The notes under the pieces are model-generated. The model had not been told where the DNA came from, did no database searches, and worked only from the letters and a program-made list of their open reading frames with translations. DNA of 64,000 bases from Xanthobacteraceae bacterium (lineage in GTDB: Bacteria > Pseudomonadota > Alphaproteobacteria > Rhizobiales > Xanthobacteraceae), in NCBI GenBank assembly GCA_029239875.1, contig JARBUD010000009.1:62001-126000 (forward strand). Direction: 5' to 3'. A program made the position numbers and the translations under genes. Position 1 is the stretch's first letter. Each line of letters opens with the position of its first letter. This document shows, in pieces, positions 3,001 to 60,607 of this stretch.

Positions 3001-6000
3001 GAAGCGCTGCGGCCGCTGGCGCAGACCGGCACCATCACCCTCACGATCCTGCCCGCCGACACCACGGCCCGCCCCCACCTCGCCGACCGCGTGAGTCCGT
3101 CCGAGGGCATCACGCTGTGCGAGGAAGAGGCCCTGCCCGCCGTCGACCTCGTGCTCCATGCCGATCCGCGCCAGCCGCTCGATCCCGCCGGCGAGCTCGG
3201 CCGGCGCCTCGGCGCCGCGTTGCGGCCCGGCGGTGCGCTCGTCGCGCTCGGCTTCGCGGCGAGCGGCTTCGCGCGGCTGCTGACCATCGACGCGCCCGCC
3301 GGCACCGTGCGCGGCGAGCGCCGGCTGCGCAGCGCCCGGGCGGCGACGGACATTGCGGTGATCGGTGCTCCGACCTCGGACCTGCCCGACCACCGGGTGG
3401 TTGGGGAGGCCATGTTGGCCTTGCTGAGGGAGGATGCGCGCTCATGCCTGGTTTCGGACACCGGTCACGTACTCGACCTCGATCTGTCGTCGCCGACCGT
3501 GCGAAGCGGCGCCGTGCTGGTGTGCAGGCCGGCGCCCGGCGCGGACGCCGCCTCGCTCGCAGCCGCGATGGACGAGGCACGCGCGGTGCTGGAAGTCCTT
3601 CGCGACGGCGCCGAGGCCGGCTCTCCCGCCCTGCGCCTGCTGGTCGACGGCGACCCGCTCGGCGGCTCTCCGGCCGCCGCCGCGCTGTGGGCCTTCGCCC
3701 GCACGGCGATGAACGAATATCCCGATCTCGACGTCAGGCTGATCGCTCTCGACCGGACCGTCGTCGACGACGCGGCGACGAGCGAATTGGCGCGCGCGGT
3801 CGTCGGGCTGCCCGGCGAGCGCGAGCTGGTGCTTGACGCGCACGGCCTCAAGGCCGTCCGCCTCGCCCCGGCGGCGCCGGAGCGCGCCTCGGATTCCGGG
3901 GCGGCCGCCCGGCTCGCCATGCAGCGGCCGGGCTCGCTCGACCGCCTCGTGTGGCGGGCGGAACCGCGCCGTGCGCCGGAAGCCGGCGAGATCGAGATCG
4001 AGATCGCCGCCGCCGCGCTGAATTTCCGCGACGTGATGTTCGCGCAGGGGCTGATCGGCGACGACATGCTCGCCAGCGGTTTCGCCGGCCCGACCCTTGG
4101 TTTCGAGTGCGCCGGCAGGGTGGTGCGCGTCGGCGAGGGCGTCGCCGACATCCGGCCCGGCGACGAGATCGTCGCCTTCGCGCCCGGCTCCTTCGCCACG
4201 CACACGACCGTGCCCGCCGCCGCGGTGCTGCCGGTGCCTGCAGGCGTATCGCTGGATGCCGCGGCGACGCTGCCGGTCGCCTTCCTCACCGCCTGGTACG
4301 GCCTCGTGCATTGCGCGCGGCTGGAAGCCGGTGAGACCGTGCTCATCCATGGCGCCGCCGGCGGCGTCGGGTTGGCGGCGATGCAGATCGCCAAGGCGCG
4401 GGGCGCGCGGATCGTCGCCACCGCCGGTTCGCCGGAGAAGCGCGCTCTCGTCCGCCTCTACGGCGCCGACGCGGTGTACGATTCCCGCGACACCCGGTTC
4501 GCCGAGACGCTGCGCGCCGAGGGCGGCTGCGACGTGGTGCTGAACTCGCTGGCGGGACGGCCGATGGAGCTGTCGCTGCGGGCGCTGAAGCCCTTCGGGC
4601 GCTTCATCGAGCTCGGCAAGCGCGACTTCGTGGCGAACACCAGCATCGGCCTGCGGCCCTTCGCGCGGAACCTCACCTATTTCGGCGTCGATGCCGACCA
4701 GCTCATCGCCGCCCGGCCGGCGCTGGCGCAGCAGGTGCTGGATGAGCTCCGCCGCCTGTTCGAGGCCGGCACGCTGCGGCCCCTGCCCCATCGCGTCTTC
4801 GCGGCGGACGACGTGCGCGCCGCCTTCCGGCTGATGCAGGGCTCGGGGCATGTCGGCAAGATCCTGGTCCGCCCGCCCACCGAAGTCTCCGCCATCCCGG
4901 CGGAAAAGCCCGTCTTCACGGCGTCGGCCGAGGGCGTGCATGTCGTGGTCGGCGGCACCGGCGGCTTCGGCCGCGAGACCGCGCGCTGGCTGGCCGAGCG
5001 GGGCGCGAAGCACATCGTCGTCGCCTCGCGCCGCGGCGTGATCGACCCGCCGCTGGCAGTGGACGGCGCCGAGATCGTCGCCGAGAGCCTCGACGTGCGC
5101 GATGCGCGCGCCTGCGCGGCGTTCGTCGCGGAGCTTCGCGCGCGCCATGGCCGCATCGCGGGCTTGATCCACACCGCCATGGTGCTGGACGACGCGCTGA
5201 TCCGCGATCTCGACTTTGACCGCTTCGAGGAGGTGCTGGCGCCCAAGGTTGACGGCGCCCGCAATCTCGACGCCGCGACCGCCGGGCTCGATCTCGACTA
5301 TTTCGTGCTGTTCTCCTCGGCCACGACACTGATCGGCAATCCCGGCCAGGCGGCCTATGTCGCGGCGAACGCCTATCTCGAAGGCCTCGCCCGCCGTCGC
5401 CGCGACGAGGGCCGGCCGGCGCTCGCCATCGCCTGGGGCGCGATCTCCGACGCCGGCGTGCTGGCGCGCAACGCCGCCACCTCCGAGAAGCTGAGCCGCC
5501 GGCTCGGCCTCGGTATGCTCACCGCCTCCGCCGCACTGGAGCATCTCGGCGCCTGCCTGGCCGATGAAGCCACGCCGCCGGTCGCGGTGCATGCACCGGT
5601 CGACTGGCGTGTGGCGCGCGAACTGGCGGTGATGGGCGGGGCGAGCTTCGCCGCGTTGCGCCCCGCCATCGAGGATGCCGCCGCCGCGGCCGGCGAGGCG
5701 GACCTGCTCGCCCTCATCCATGGCCAGAGCGACGGCGAGGCGCGGGCGACGGTGTTGCGCCTGCTCACCGGCGAACTCGCCCGCATCCTGCGCCTGCCGG
5801 CCGAGACCATCGAGCCCTCGCGCCCGCTCAGCGAGATAGGCATGGATTCGCTGATGGGGCTGGAGCTGGACATGGAGATGCAGCGCCGCCACAAGGTCGC
5901 GCTGCCCATGCTCGGCCTCGGCGCCGGCGCCACCTTGGAGGACGTGACCGACAAGGTGCTGCGCAAGCTGCGCCCCTCCGCCGAGGCCGCGGGCGGCGAC

Positions 6001-54243: not shown

Positions 54244-54543
54244 CCGGCAGACCGGCCGCGCAAGAGGAACTTCGTCAACCTGCTAAGTGTTGGTTGGCGG
54301 CGGCACGCTGGGCAATCGATGCAAAATGGCGGGCCGAAGCCGACGAAACAGAGAACTACACCTACGCTATAGCCCTCCAAAATTGAGGTACAAGCGAGGG
54401 TTCGTGACGTCGAGCGCTCCAGCGGCGTGGGCTGCGGCCATCAACTTTCTTCTGCCGCGCGGATACAGCTTCGGCGTTCCAACTAAGGGATTCCCTTTGG
54501 CACCAATGTGGTGCATGATGGTGCACCATGGGGAATCTGCGGT
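54244..54543. other. Left boundary of the low-G+C island, non-coding
   Basis: About 300 bp where composition shifts from G+C-rich to more balanced. No integrase, transposase or clear boundary repeat was found. The last 60 bp carry the dyads described separately. Confidence 0.45.
54501..54529. promoter_or_regulatory. Operator-like repeats before the RHH gene
   Basis: CACC-N5-GGTG at 54501-54513 followed by the perfect 12-bp palindrome ATGGTGCACCAT at 54518-54529, 14 bp before the small DNA-binding protein's ATG. Clustered GGTG/CACC half-sites suit a ribbon-helix-helix autorepressor. Confidence 0.5.
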
Positions 54544-54744
54544 ATGTCATCAAAAGTGAGATTTTCGGTCAGCTTGGACCCAAAGACCAACCGGGCCATT
54601 GAGGAATTGGCCCAACGGCACAAGCCGGAGCTATCGAAAAGCTATATCGTCGAATACGCTTTGCTTCGCCTCCTGAAGGGGATGGATGCAAAGCAGCTCT
54701 TGCTCCCGCTTGAGCTTGAGGGCGGCCATGGCGCGGAACGCTGA
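54544..54744 (+). CDS. Ribbon-helix-helix (CopG-like) small protein
   Basis: 66 residues. VRFSVSLDPKTNRAIEELA followed by helices (YIVEYALLRLLKG) fits a ribbon-helix-helix DNA-binding fold. A GTG 36 bp upstream is in frame but would run through the palindromes; ATG 54544 fits the fold. It precedes the methyltransferase gene by 76 bp and may regulate it. Confidence 0.6.
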   Translation: MSSKVRFSVSLDPKTNRAIEELAQRHKPELSKSYIVEYALLRLLKGMDAKQLLLPLELEGGHGAER

Positions 54745-54820
54745 GCACACCGCTCACCTTGATAAATGGTGTTCCGTCCAGTGAAGCGGCAAACCTCATA
54801 TATCTTGATCGGGGCGTGCC

Positions 54821-57800
54821 GTGGATAGCCAGGGCCGCGAGCTTCTAGATCAAGTATATAGCGCGTTCTCTGAGAGGTCGAACGATCTCCTTGATGCTGT
54901 CGCGCAGCCTGGCGCGCTCAGTGACAAGGATGGCTCTGCTTCGCGCTGGACCGATCTTGGTGATTGGCTGAGTCTCGCGAGGCGGCTCGGAGCGCAAAAA
55001 GTGCTCTTCGTTCGTGGCGACCCTGTCGCCGTGTTCAGTGACGCTCACGACGCGTCGGACGAGGTGGCGTTGGGAGAACTCTATCGTCGTGCCTGGTGCA
55101 TGACCGAGCCTCGTTGTCTTTTTGTCGCACTCCCGCACGAACTCCGAATTTATGATCTCAATACTCCACCGAAACGGGGAGGACCGCCAAGTGATCCTTG
55201 GCGGGTGCTTTCATCTGCCGCCGATGTGCTCAAAATTGACGCACGAAATCGATGAATATGGCCCCGATCTGCAAGGGCTAATGGAAGTAGGAAATTCTGC
55301 GCCCGCTCGTGCTGACCGCCGCCTCATTGATGATCTGCGGCATGTCCGTTCGCAACTTGAGGCAACGGGCCTCTCAATGGCCGAAGCACATGCTCTCATC
55401 GGCCGTTCGATCCTCGTGAGGTATCTGGAAGATCGTGGCGTACTGACGCAAGCCTATTTCGATGAAGTGGCCGGCAACAATCAGACATGGCAGTTAGCGC
55501 TCTCTAGCGAGGGGGCCATACCCGTGCTTGGCCCCCCGGGAAAGCAGCGCCTCTACGACAGGGTGCTTTGCGACGCTGACTTTACCCACGCGCTATTCAA
55601 AAAAGCTGTCCACGGATTTTAACGGCGATCTGTTCGCACTCGGAGAAGCGCGGGAGAAGCGGTTCGACGACGTGGCACTGAAGCTCCTGCGCGCATTCCT
55701 GCTTGGAGAGATTCAGGCTGGTCAACAGCCTCTATTTTTCTGGGCGTACGATTTTGAGGTAGTCCCTCTCGCCCTGATCAGTAGCATTTATGAGCAATTC
55801 TATCATGACGCTCTCAACAAGGAGACTGCCAGAAGAACGGAAAAGAATACCACCGCTCCGTCGCCTCAAGCCGATAATGGAGGCGCGTCTGTTCGCGTCA
55901 TTGACGATGATCCCGAAGACACTAGTTTCGAGGAAGGTGAGTTCAAACACGGCGCGGGTACGCATTATACGCCGGCTAGTCTTGTCCACGATGCGCTGCG
56001 AAGGACACTGACCCCAACCTGTTTGGTACACCATCCAAAAATACTTGATCCAGCCTGTGGGTCAGGAATCTTCCTCGTGGAAGCATTTCGTAGGATCGTC
56101 CGCTACGAAGCCCAAGGCAGGAAGCGTAAGCTATCGCCAGACGAGTTGCGTGACATTCTCCAAAATCGCATTTTCGGCATTGAAATCAATGCGGAGGCCG
56201 CCCGCGTCGCAGCGTTCAGCCTTTACCTAGCGCTTCTTGATCAACAGGAGCCACCCGATATCGCCTCGGGAGGGCCACTGCCTTATCTGCTGCATAGTGG
56301 CCTGCGCGACGAGAAGCACTTTGGGATACTCATCGTTTCTGACGCTTTTGCGCTGACCAAGGATGAACGTGAGTTACTCTCGAAGCGAGTAGCCGCCAAG
56401 AAAGCCTATAAAGGTCGTGCGGGCGACGTCAGACTGCTGGCCAATGCTGGAATTCTGGACCTGCCGCTCGGCGGCTTCGATGTTGTGATTGGCAATCCCC
56501 CCTGGCAGGAAGCGCCGTCCCTCCCTCGTAGCTGGGCGGCTGCGTTCAAATTTCCGGAGGGCGAAGGAGCCTACTCCCAGCTTTTCATTCATCGTGCTCT
56601 GACGTTACTTCGAGAAGGCGGGAGGCTGGGGCTTCTCGTTGGCATGAAGGTATTCTGGAACGACCGCGATACGAGTAGAGCATTTCGCGGCCACCTATTG
56701 GCACACGCGGCACTCATGCAAGTCGTGAACATGGCGCATGTGCGTCGTGTGTTCTTCGCGAAAGCAGTTGCACCGTTTGCATTCTTGCTTGCTGAAAGGC
56801 GCCCGCCGTTACCCGGTGAGCGGGTTGTAATCTGGAATGCAAGGCGGGTTCGAGCTGTCGATCGGTTGCGGTCTATGGCAGCCGTCCCGCTTGATCGACG
56901 CGTCGTGGCCCAAGGCGATCTGGCCGATGCTGACTATCTTTGGAAAGTCTATTGGTGGGGTGGGCATCATGACGCCGCGCTGCTGTCCAGGCTGGCGTTG
57001 GAGCGGACACTGGGCGAAACGGTCAAGGACGCCGATCCACAACCGCGTTACGGTTGGCAACGCGGTAGCTCCGTCCCGTCCGGGAAGCTCGCGACACTAT
57101 CTGAACTCAGCAATCGAAAGGTGCAGCCATTTGGGCGCTTGCAAGAGGGTTGGTTTGTACCACCGCCGACCGGGATCAAACGAGACCCCGATCAACGGAT
57201 TTACAGCGGACAACGCTTGGTAATCACCCATGGCGTTAGGGAACCCGTTGGTCCTGTCGCTCGACTAGAGACTCGCGAGTTCTCGTTCCGGCATAGCTTT
57301 TACTGCATTCCATTGCCGCATCTCACCGAAAACGAAGCTCAGTTGGTGCTCGGAGTGATGTGGTCTTCGCTCGGCCGCTACCTGCTGTTTATGACCGCAG
57401 GCAGTTGGGGCGGGTGGCATGACAAAGTCACTGCCCGCGACCTGCTCCGCATGCCGGTACGTCTGAAGCCTTCATGGGGCATGCCGAAGACGAAGCATGA
57501 CGAAGCCGCAATGCGCGTTGTGCAAGCCGTGACCCAGTTGCGCGATCTCCCATCCCGCAACCCCCTCCCACTTGGACTTTTCCATACTTCTTCCCATGAG
57601 AAACCCGAAGAAAATTGGCTAGGTGTACTCGATGAAGCCATTTTCGATTTGTTTGAGCTTGCCAAGGCTGAACGTGATCTAGTTGAGGATTTCTGGGCTG
57701 AGAACCACGAACTCTACTGGAAAGGAGCGGAGGCGGGGGCAACCAAACGCTTAACGTTAGCCGGGGTTTTGAATGGTACACGAGCAGACCTTCCGGAAAC

Positions 57801-58185
57801 TCCGGATCGAACCGGATTGCAGCCTTATCTGCGGGCTTTTTTGGAGGCTTGGAACGCGCAGTTGCCTGAAGGTTCTGAATTCCACTGGCAGGTAGTCATT
57901 TCGCCGGCTCGCGATGCAGTCGCCGTGGTTTTCGCTTTGGGTGGCGCAGAGATATCGGCACAGCAAGGCCCTGACGGCGAGTGGGAATCGATTGTCGCGC
58001 GGTGCGCTGATGCACTCGATCAACCGATTTCACCTGCGTTTTATGCCAAGCGTGTTGTCAGGGCAGCGACAGCCGACAACTTTATTATTCTGCGGGAGAA
58101 TACACGCCGCCTTTGGACAGCCAGTACCGCCAGAGAAGACGCCGAAGCCTTGTTCGTACAACTTGCCGTGCGTAGCGAGGGTTGA
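54821..58185 (+). pseudogene. Large N6-adenine DNA methyltransferase, interrupted by two frameshifts
   Basis: Three consecutive frames cover one protein. Frame 1 (GTG 54821 to stop 55255) encodes the N-terminal region. Frame 2 continues from about 55236 to a stop at 55622. Frame 3 runs from about 55600 to 58185. Removing one A from the AAAA run at 55232-55235 and one from the A6 run at 55599-55604 restores one frame of 1120 residues with sensible joints (ALFKK-LSTDFNGD at the second). The catalytic part has motif I DPACGSGIF (nt 56047 on) and motif IV GNPPW (nt 56491 on), with a long C-terminal region that may be the target-recognition part. It resembles Eco57I/type IIG-like or BREX/DISARM-type methylases but I cannot place it further. 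Whether the shifts are real or sequencing errors is open. It is followed by a nuclease-like gene whose start lies 5 bp after its stop. Confidence 0.8.
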
Positions 58186-58190
58186 CCGGG

Positions 58191-58961
58191 ATGGCTGGGC
58201 TGAACGAGGTTTCGATCAATCTATGGCCCTCTTTTGTAGAAAAAGTCCAAGATATTGTCAAAGCTGGCCTCCAGCGTCTCGCTGAGGATGCCGAGGAGAA
58301 CGGGTTTGTCGCGTCGTGCGAAAATGACCTCAACCGAGAATTGTTCTTTCGAATGAGGCGGATTGCCGCCGACCGTCACAAGACTCTACTCTCGTTGTCT
58401 CCAAGTCCTGTTTTGAGCCGAGAGCACACGTGGAACCTAGTCGCTGCATATGAAGCAAACAATCAACCTAGCCCAGACGATCCAGAGAGAACGCCACGCG
58501 AAAATAAGCGCCCTGACTTTCAGTGGAGTTTCTTGGACGATCAAGCAACAGATCTTGACCGTTCTACAAGAACCTATGTCGTCGAGTGCAAGCGTTTAGG
58601 CCAAGCAATCGGTGCTTGGATTTTCAACGCAAACTATGTGGCGCAAGGCGTAGGCCGATACATTTCCAAGTCGCACCTCTATGGCAAAGACGACGCTGGC
58701 GGCGGCATGATCGGTTATGTTCAATCGATGGACATCGATACGATCTGGGCCGAGATCGATTGTAATCTCGGCAGTGCGGGAATTTCATCACTTCCCATGC
58801 TATCGCCCATTTCAGGATCATCTGCACTTCATGTCGCATCTCATGAGATAATTCGTTCGGACGCGTCTTCTCCATTTCATCTACATCATATCTGGGTCGA
58901 TCTTCGTGCATCAGGCGCGCAATTGGCTTCTGATCCATGTAGGGCAGAGAGAAGGGAATAG
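58191..58961 (+). CDS. PD-(D/E)XK nuclease-like protein, putative restriction component
   Basis: 256 residues. The pattern RPDF (Asp 109) followed by VECK (Glu 132, Lys 134) after a hydrophobic strand fits a PD-(D/E)XK nuclease core, and ENDLNREL near residue 44 could supply the helical Glu. ATG 58191 has GAGGG upstream; TTG 58182 overlaps the methyltransferase stop. It sits between the methyltransferase and FRG genes with short gaps, so all three appear to be one operon. Nuclease activity is inferred from motif and context. Confidence 0.65.
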   Translation: MAGLNEVSINLWPSFVEKVQDIVKAGLQRLAEDAEENGFVASCENDLNRELFFRMRRIAADRHKTLLSLSPSPVLSREHTWNLVAAYEANNQPSPDDPERTPRENKRPDFQWSFLDDQATDLDRSTRTYVVECKRLGQAIGAWIFNANYVAQGVGRYISKSHLYGKDDAGGGMIGYVQSMDIDTIWAEIDCNLGSAGISSLPMLSPISGSSALHVASHEIIRSDASSPFHLHHIWVDLRASGAQLASDPCRAERRE

Positions 58962-58967
58962 CGACGC

Positions 58968-60377
58968 ATGGCGGAAGCTTTCAACTACATATCTTTTGGA
59001 AACTGGGAATATATCGAGGGCAACGTCGATGACATCACCATGGGTCGGGGACGTATGTTCGAATATACGCCGCCGGACACCGAAAAGCGGCTTGAAAGCC
59101 TCGATAATACGGCACTCGCTTTTCTAGAAAAGCTACCGACCTTCTTGTGCAGCGAGATCAAGTCCGGCGGAGACGCTGTCTCCATGCTGATCAAGTATGG
59201 TCGAGTTTCCAACATCAATCTCGGACATAAGGAGGTCTCCGCTGCCTTCGAGACCTTGACCGACTTCGGCGAGGTGGGATTCGAGAACATTGAGGCGGCT
59301 CGCTCGGTGTTTGGCGCGGATAGGTTTCAACTCTATCGAACTCATTGGGCCGTCCGTGAAGGTGATGCTAGTGACATCCTCAACCGGCTGGCTGAAGCGA
59401 AGCCCGATCTTGCCCAAATTATCGCGGCCGCGCATGCTCCTGCTGACGATGGTGCCGAAGTCCAACCGCCGCCTCGCGACAAAAGGATTCTTGGCAACGC
59501 CGACAGCGTGGAGCGGTTTCTTGAGCTTCTCTATAGCTTGCCGGCGAAGGTGGAGACTGAGACATTCTTCAGGGGACACAGTGACGCGCGCTATGAGTTG
59601 ACCCCGTCCCTGCTGCGCAAATGGGACAATGGTGACTGGCAGTTCATGCCCAGCGAGGACCGCCTCTGCAAAGAGCTGCTAATCGCCCATCACGACGAGT
59701 TCCACGGCGATGATTATTGCTTCGACCGCCTCGTGCGCATGCAACATTACGGCCTGCCTACGCGGCTGCTCGATGTTTCCGGTAATCCGCTGGTGGCGCT
59801 GTTCTTTGCCTGCTCGTGCAAGCCGGATCAACTCGGCATCGACGGCGAGGTCATCGTCTTCCAAGTCGCGTCGGACGGCGTGAAATACTATGATTCCGAC
59901 ACCGTCAGTTGTCTGTCCAACCTCTCAAATCTGACCTATGCGCAGAAGAACGACATAGACCTCAGCCTCGACCAAGATGCCTTCAACGCAACAGATGTCG
60001 CCGGCAAGCTGCTCCACCACATCAAGTCCGAGAAGGGGTTTTTCGAAGGACGAATCGTTCCCGACGACTTGGGCTCTATCATATGCGTAAAGGCGAAGCG
60101 CACGAATACCCGCATCAAATCCCAGTCCGGAGCCTTTCTGCTGTTCGGCCACGAGGCCGCGCTGCCCGATGCAGGACAGGACGGCATCGAGATCAGCCGG
60201 GTGACGATCAAGAATAAGGCGCACATTCTCAACCAGCTCGACCGCATCAACATCAACGCCACGACCGTCTATCCGAGCATTGACCAGACCGCAGTTCATT
60301 TGCGCGATCAGCACCAGTCACCGGAGCCGGTCAGAATGGCTACCAGCACTACGTCCGACGATCATCCAGATGTTTGA
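58968..60377 (+). CDS. FRG-domain protein with unknown N-terminal region
   Basis: 469 residues. The FRG domain begins near residue 198 (TFFRGHSDARYELTPSLLR) and includes RMQHYGLPTRLLDVSGNPLVA, split around residue 255, the family's conserved segment. The function of FRG domains is unknown; they recur in putative defence and mobile loci. The first 190 residues, ending in a proline-rich linker (EVQPPPRDK), are not recognised. It starts 6 bp after the nuclease-like gene with AGAAGGGAA as ribosome-binding site. Confidence 0.7.
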   Translation: MAEAFNYISFGNWEYIEGNVDDITMGRGRMFEYTPPDTEKRLESLDNTALAFLEKLPTFLCSEIKSGGDAVSMLIKYGRVSNINLGHKEVSAAFETLTDFGEVGFENIEAARSVFGADRFQLYRTHWAVREGDASDILNRLAEAKPDLAQIIAAAHAPADDGAEVQPPPRDKRILGNADSVERFLELLYSLPAKVETETFFRGHSDARYELTPSLLRKWDNGDWQFMPSEDRLCKELLIAHHDEFHGDDYCFDRLVRMQHYGLPTRLLDVSGNPLVALFFACSCKPDQLGIDGEVIVFQVASDGVKYYDSDTVSCLSNLSNLTYAQKNDIDLSLDQDAFNATDVAGKLLHHIKSEKGFFEGRIVPDDLGSIICVKAKRTNTRIKSQSGAFLLFGHEAALPDAGQDGIEISRVTIKNKAHILNQLDRININATTVYPSIDQTAVHLRDQHQSPEPVRMATSTTSDDHPDV

Positions 60378-60437
60378 GGAGCGGCTTCGTCCTCAATCCG
60401 ATATGATGTGCCCACGAATTGTCGGGCTGTAGCGTAG

Positions 60438-60513
60438 AATCGGCGGCTTACTATCTCACCCGGTGGAATGCGGTAATCGGCGGGAATATCGCACCATGGA
60501 GGGCAATCGGCGG
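60438..60513. repeat. Three direct repeats AATCGGCGG beside the tRNA gene
   Basis: Copies at 60438-60446, 60475-60483 and 60505-60513, spaced 37 and 30 bp apart, in the short gap between the FRG gene and the tRNA 3' end. They may be integration-related sites or chance. Confidence 0.45.
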
Positions 60514-60517
60514 TGTT

Positions 60518-60607
60518 TGGCGGAAGGGGTGGGATTCGAACCCACGGTGAGCTTGCACCCACGGCGGTTTTCAAGACCGCTGCCTTAAACCACTCGGCCA
60601 CCCTTCC
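60518..60607 (-). tRNA. tRNA-Ser (anticodon UGA)
   Basis: 90 nt including an encoded CCA. GGAAGGG/CCCTTCC acceptor stem, D-arm with GCCGAGTGG, anticodon loop CTTGAAA giving UGA between GCGGT and ACCGC, a long variable arm typical of serine tRNAs, and the TTCGAAT T-loop. Its 3' end faces the low-G+C island. Confidence 0.95.

Follow-up and report, generated by a model that had tools for sequence, protein, structure and literature searches.

A low-G+C island at a tRNA-Ser gene

Here we analyse a 64,000-nucleotide stretch of DNA from a Xanthobacteraceae bacterium (GenBank contig JARBUD010000009.1, positions 62,001 to 126,000; hereafter, the window), which is part of contig C19 of a 5.07-Mb genome. 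Our focus is the block at 54327–60523, which encodes, in this order on the plus strand, a ribbon-helix-helix (RHH) regulator, a large adenine methyltransferase, a small nuclease-like protein and an FRG-domain protein. We consider it likely that this 6.2-kb island at a tRNA-Ser gene combines a split Type IIG-like restriction system, made up of a regulator, a methylation and specificity protein and a separate restriction subunit, with an independent FRG effector. The block and its borders comprise the following features.

54327..54380, plus strand: left end (L-end), where homology to the Paracoccus locus begins; these 54 bp recur in plasmids
54499..54527, plus strand: GCACC/GGTGC repeats, candidate operator 5' of the RHH gene
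54544..54744, plus strand: RHH (CopG-like) regulator; PF01402, E 2.5e-4, 21.3 bits (cut-off 20.5)
54821..58185, plus strand: broken adenine methyltransferase/specificity gene in three frames; Eco57I, PF07669, E 1.4e-17
58191..58961, plus strand: PD-(D/E)XK-like nuclease subunit; D112, E135 and K137 invariant in 15/15 relatives
58968..60377, plus strand: FRG-domain protein, after a 6-bp gap behind the nuclease gene; PF08867, E 4.7e-19; PADLOC PDC-S15, E 2e-100
60424..60523, plus strand: right end (R-end) with three AATCGGCGG repeats, its final TGGCGG inside the tRNA-Ser 3' end; recurs in plasmids
60518..60607, minus strand: tRNA-Ser(TGA), the attachment gene; ARAGORN

The G+C content is 0.51–0.57 in all five 1-kb steps spanning 55–60 kb and 0.64–0.76 outside them, with the exceptions of 0.595 at 54–55 kb and 0.580 at 62–63 kb. 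An initial annotation of this DNA had pointed to the lower G+C content and the tRNA neighbour, as well as to the upstream RHH gene, a large adenine methyltransferase and an FRG domain, and our analysis agrees with it on each of these. It had also described three genes on one strand with gaps of 5 and 6 bp. The gaps stand, the first of them if the nuclease gene starts at the ATG at 58191, 5 bp past the methyltransferase stop (an alternative TTG at 58182 would overlap the methyltransferase), but the methyltransferase is not one open gene and is distributed over three frames.

Conserved pairing of methyltransferase and nuclease-like genes

Judged by gene order, the methyltransferase and the nuclease-like gene are a conserved pair: a methyltransferase gene lies directly upstream, on the same strand, in 17/17 nuclease loci examined besides the window. 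The loci that carry both genes span alphaproteobacteria, a cyanobacterium, plasmids, one viral contig and further genomes. A nuclease pattern scan of 84,980 species genomes, which reaches close nuclease relatives only, returned four loci, in Sphingopyxis bauzanensis (L007), Paracoccus solventivorans (L008), Sphingomonas (L009) and the cyanobacterium Anabaenopsis (L010). Searching the class with the single nuclease protein gave matches in 4 of 385 genomes, the window's own genome included. Nuclease profiles matched 8 of 372 genomes in the class and 5 of 398 in the phylum, with the own genome and one other common to both searches and three of the matches flagged with an internal stop; viral contigs contributed one nuclease match. 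Two plasmid loci (L032 and L033) were first retrieved via the methyltransferase and are found by the nuclease search too, and adjacent methyltransferase and nuclease matches on Sagittula and R. gallicum plasmids are additional to the 17 loci.

The surroundings of two pair loci can be described further. On the viral contig (L060, 2328–10082), a helix-turn-helix (HTH) gene, the methyltransferase and the nuclease adjoin, on the opposite strand, a UvrD-like helicase gene and an ATPase gene that look Gabija-like by eye. In Anabaenopsis (L010, 3992–9844), a TniQ-like open reading frame (ORF) is followed by the methyltransferase–nuclease pair and then by a MerR-like ORF and a tRNA-Ala gene; by eye, this resembles what we take to be a remnant Tn7-like or CRISPR-associated transposon (CAST) element with the pair as cargo.

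Nuclease residue numbers refer to the ORF of 259 residues with TTG 58182 as its start. D112, E135, K137 and R138 are invariant in all 15 nucleases whose translations were used (211–261 residues), and the first three also in 10/10 sequences of another alignment. E47, in the preceding helix, is kept in 15/15 sequences of the larger alignment and is not invariant in the 10-sequence alignment. Searches of PADLOC and NCBIfam gave no match to the family, and Pfam gave none that was meaningful; PDB sequence searches with the nuclease and FRG alignments gave nothing useful. An AlphaFold model of low confidence (mean predicted local distance difference test score (pLDDT) 56.6) places a helix at residues 47–65, strands at 113–119, 130–136 and 138–140, a helix at 150–161 and a strand at 179–181; in this low-confidence model (pLDDT 56.6), the order of elements agrees with an alpha-beta-beta-beta-alpha-beta core. 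Fold searches with the same low-confidence model gave no significant PDB match, with EcoO109I (Foldseek) and BglI and SfiI (VIA-align) appearing among unrelated proteins. The proposal of the initial annotation that a methyltransferase and a PD-(D/E)XK-type nuclease act together in restriction is supported by the 17/17 upstream linkage and by D112, E135 and K137 in 15/15 relatives.

The RHH gene precedes the methyltransferase in the window, in Paracoccus and in L007 and L009, and by eye GCACC/GGTGC-like repeats also lie 5' of it in the latter three loci. This position of the repeats 5' of the RHH gene suggests that the RHH protein autoregulates its operon. Elsewhere, the small DNA-binding gene before the methyltransferase varies, being MerR-like in L011 and an HTH gene in L060. 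Among the ORFs and scanned proteins from RHH to FRG in the window, we found no ATPase gene.

Frameshifts in the assembled methyltransferase gene

In the window, methyltransferase ORFs occur in three frames, at 54821–55255, 55122–55622 and 55528–58185. The intact Sphingopyxis methyltransferase (L007; 1,122 residues) aligns successively to 54821–55237, 55233–55619 and 55600–58173, in frames 2, 3 and 1, which therefore places two frameshifts near 55,240 and 55,610. These may be true mutations or assembly errors. Intact relatives of about 1,120 codons are encoded at 4636–8004 of L007, 4619–7996 of L009 and 4633–7977 of L010. The domains PF07669 (Eco57I) and PF02384 (N6_Mtase) are present in L007, L009, L010 and L011 as well as in the window piece, and each position of the motifs DP.CGSG and NPPW is kept in 14 or 15 of the 15 members.

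The Paracoccus copy is damaged at other places: its methyltransferase gene has one stop codon and changes frame twice, and its FRG gene changes frame once. Between the window and this copy, the ratio of non-synonymous to synonymous substitution rates (dN/dS) is 0.05–0.14 for three methyltransferase segments, 0.17 for the nuclease, 0.22 for the RHH gene, and 0.24 and 0.01 for two parts of the FRG gene, the lower value belonging to the FRG-domain part. Ratios of 0.01–0.24 by segment indicate that the genes of both copies are under purifying selection, and decay, if real, would therefore be recent. Because the methyltransferase gene is broken in the window assembly, the restriction unit is probably inactive there, and the nuclease, now an orphan, is probably harmless; the FRG reading frame is uninterrupted.

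Class of the proposed restriction system and source of specificity

The PADLOC model REase_MTase_IIG (PDLC03623) spans residues 138–1026 of the 1037-residue methyltransferase of L060 (E 4.7e-96). It is also the best match for the L007 methyltransferase (E 1e-35), where its best stretch covers only residues 372–479, mainly the methyltransferase core. Like the Type IIG enzymes Eco57I, MmeI and BpuSI, the family joins a gamma-class adenine methyltransferase to a C-terminal recognition region. Type IIG enzymes also cut at a fixed distance and are stimulated by SAM. In Type IIG enzymes, the cleavage domain is part of the same chain and N-terminal, as described in excerpts of PMC3874165 and PMC4081073. 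By contrast, residues 1–200 of the 15 methyltransferases contain, at the level of sequence motifs, no conserved D...(E/D)xK, a loose nuclease pattern appears in the N-termini of 2 of 6 single sequences at differing positions, and the PD-(D/E)XK-like protein has a gene of its own. As the N-terminus is without a conserved D...ExK, we do not file the methyltransferase as Type IIG; we read the system as one that would work like a Type IIG enzyme whose cutter became, or stayed, a separate protein. In Type III systems (Mod and Res), recognition and methylation likewise sit in one subunit and cutting in another. Unlike in Type I and Type III systems, the nuclease subunit, with some 210–260 residues, is too small for a helicase motor.

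A comparison of two loci, L011 and L013, bears on the source of specificity. Their methyltransferases and their nucleases are each 88% identical overall. Within the methyltransferases, 60-residue windows starting at residues 631–691 drop to 45–58% identity, and DNA identity goes from 92–97% to 47% and then back to 84–94%. This pattern is the signature of target-recognition-domain replacement in Type I and Type IIG enzymes, and is as expected if the recognition domain was replaced between the two loci with the cutter unchanged. Because the nuclease is unchanged when the recognition region differs, it probably does not read sequence itself; on the strength of this one clear case, it probably borrows its specificity from the methyltransferase.

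The FRG gene as a probable stand-alone unit

The FRG domain occupies residues 198–284 of its protein. The N-terminal region before it, some 170 residues long, is conserved; residues 1–175 lie outside the stretches matched by PDC-S15. Called unrecognised in the initial annotation, this N-terminal region proves to be common to full-length FRG relatives, found in 217 plasmid records (at least 80% coverage), five phage records and more than 30 viral contigs. The closest relatives (79–80%, alignment A7) lie on contigs that, by eye, carry phage structural genes. According to passages in PMC9503650, the Frg domain belongs to the ADP-ribosyltransferase superfamily and is a potential NADase or immune effector; the excerpted text of PMC7159879 makes no mention of Frg. 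The window protein resembles PDC-S15 and other FRG-domain proteins in its strong PDC-S15 match (E 2e-100), and differs from PDC-S15 in sitting 6 bp after a restriction pair.

FRG accompanies the methyltransferase–nuclease pair in 2/18 loci, the window and Paracoccus solventivorans, which share 92% identical DNA. We also considered 96 FRG loci, comprising 80 viral (the best 80 of 101), 10 genomic (with flanks of about 1.5 kb), three plasmid and three phage loci, many of them FRG-domain-only relatives. The nuclease is encoded in none of the 96; two of the 80 viral loci show weak, partial similarity to the methyltransferase. Since no FRG locus in this set encodes the nuclease, FRG is best read as a stand-alone unit, and on co-occurrence we reject it as an operon-specific third component, contrary to the suggestion in the initial annotation that it is a third member of the system.

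Two further FRG neighbourhoods were seen on plasmids. On Rhizobium beringeri plasmid pRlX2 (L026, 6521–9371), a 67% FRG relative lies about 100 bp after an annotated drt2 gene (antiviral reverse transcriptase) on the same strand. On Raoultella plasmid p23_E (L030, 5148–7326), a gene for a 267-residue TPR protein lies 13 bp upstream of an enterobacterial FRG gene, a possible two-gene unit.

Proposed mechanism and competing explanations

In the arrangement that we favour, a mobile island (54327–60523) in the 3' end of the tRNA-Ser gene would carry two independent anti-phage units. In the first, the large protein, with methylation and specificity functions in one chain, would recognise DNA and methylate adenine, and the small PD-(D/E)XK protein would cut unmodified DNA with specificity supplied by the large protein; no helicase or ATPase gene belongs to the unit. 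The RHH protein would probably repress the operon through the GCACC/GGTGC repeats. The second unit, FRG, would act alone as an effector from the ADP-ribosyltransferase superfamily, probably as an enzyme that consumes NAD in abortive infection, and its position behind the nuclease gene would be due to chance.

The pair could instead be an ordinary Type II restriction–modification system, in which one site is recognised independently by a large monomeric gamma-class methyltransferase and by a small restriction enzyme of conventional type. The nuclease, at about 210–260 residues, has the size of a classical Type II enzyme, and the two proteins co-diverge closely, recognition region included: over 105 pairs, nuclease similarity goes equally well with that of the recognition region and that of the core (0.94 and 0.94), which weighs against a cutter with borrowed specificity. 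However, a single nuclease family, with the same invariant residues in 15/15 members, serves methyltransferases with differing recognition regions, and between L011 and L013 the nuclease is still 88% identical where the recognition region is strongly different. We therefore regard an ordinary Type II system as unlikely.

It also seems rather doubtful that the island is a decayed relic without present function, with the restriction pair as a pseudogene and FRG as a passenger. The methyltransferase is broken in the window, and both it and FRG are broken in Paracoccus, but dN/dS between the copies is low, and in the window the reading frames of FRG and the nuclease are uninterrupted. A system of three genes, in which the restriction pair has FRG as its triggered effector, would fit the tight spacing in the window and Paracoccus copies and the purifying selection on FRG (dN/dS 0.01 for the FRG-domain part). 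Both of the loci that combine FRG with the pair (2/18), however, hold the same island, the FRG loci contribute no nuclease (0/96) and few weak methyltransferase matches (2/80), and the closest FRG relatives stand alone in prophage-like contigs or next to drt2, making such a system highly improbable.

A tRNA island that carries restriction and an FRG gene is of an ordinary kind. What is new in the split Type IIG-like system is that the nuclease partnering a presumed Type IIG family is a separate protein and is listed in none of the family libraries searched, and we found no description of the methyltransferase–nuclease pair or of the island ends in the open-access literature on FRG in defence, split Type IIG, PADLOC candidates and such cassettes. 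The methyltransferase family is already in PADLOC as Type IIG, and the always-adjacent nuclease is in none of Pfam, NCBIfam and PADLOC; annotation pipelines would therefore see half a system and assume that the cutter is inside the methyltransferase. If our reading is true, a nuclease whose specificity comes from an exchangeable recognition domain would offer a tractable restriction tool, built simply from two parts and without a helicase.

Recurring island ends

The 92% match to Paracoccus is limited to positions 54327–60523 of the window, and the sequences at both borders recur elsewhere. The 54 bp of the L-end are found in a Haematobacter plasmid (96%), in a Rhizobium plasmid (80%) and directly behind the R-end in L008. 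The R-end (about 100 bp) recurs to the identical last base in Shinella, Sinorhizobium and Beijerinckia plasmids, reaches within 12 bases of the last base in an R. leguminosarum plasmid and is partial in Zymomonas. In L008, and by eye in L037, L038 and L041, the R-end abuts the L-end or a diverged L-end, as it would at a tandem or circle junction. R-ends touch tRNA genes in the window and in L054, and a diverged Shinella R-end at tRNA-Ser(TGA) has its final 24 bases identical to those of the window. An R-end profile matches 8 of 385 genomes; matches in G366, G205 and G057 (E 6e-5 to 4e-4) were dropped, as they resemble chance hits within coding regions. We rejected the idea that the R-end acts as an RNA or as a folded attC-like site, folding being no better than that of shuffles (z 1.25 for the R-end and 0.01 for the L-end).

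The island resembles tRNA-targeted genomic islands in ending within a tRNA 3' end, in its repeated arm-like sites at one end and in its recurring end sequences. Unlike these, it has no integrase recognised among the ORFs and scanned proteins of the 6.2 kb. A tblastn search for a shared integrase near the ends, with the integrases of L052, L038 and L031 but not the serine recombinase of L040 as queries, found only the queries themselves over 18 loci and the window. Mobility may be provided in trans. We tentatively suggest that the island may belong to a set of small, mobile, integrase-less cassettes of Alphaproteobacteria with fixed ends (a AATCGGCGG arm and a TGGCGG core), tRNA 3' insertion, tandem stacking, interchangeable defence cargo and a recombinase in trans. 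The cargo would then be split restriction and FRG in the window and Paracoccus, a gene with weak PDC-M54A/Avs4 similarity in Shinella, and a reverse transcriptase (RT)-protease gene with Gabija in Haematobacter. By eye, there are no obvious defence genes beside the R-end in G135, G236 and the own-genome copy on contig C34, and the cargo is therefore not always defence. The recurring ends are a lead worth testing, and shared ends would give a sequence handle for locating more defence cargo in Alphaproteobacteria.

Several individual sites add detail. In the same-genus genome G460, examined for an empty site, the same tRNA gene is followed on the right by 2.7 kb of other DNA, and the left flank of the window was not found there. 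Contig C34 of the own genome (L052, 3429–5079) holds a second, partial R-end-like site; a gene for a tyrosine integrase that includes an Arm-DNA-binding domain ends some 215 bp away. On the Shinella plasmid (L037, 14092–19995), an R–L junction is followed by genes for a 1,651-residue and a 124-residue protein and then by an R-end at tRNA-Ser(TGA); the 1,651-residue protein weakly resembles PDC-M54A (E 2.7e-16) and Avs4 (E 3.5e-7). We do not claim the Haematobacter locus as a complete element ending at tRNA-Ser(GCT), where there is no R-end profile match and the nearby AATCGGCGG lies, by eye, in a serine-recombinase-like ORF. On this plasmid, pOT1-2 of Haematobacter massiliensis (L040, 14001–20172), an RT-protease gene and Gabija (GajA and GajB) lie behind the L-end, and an annotated BREX-type brxL gene lies about 13 kb before the L-end.

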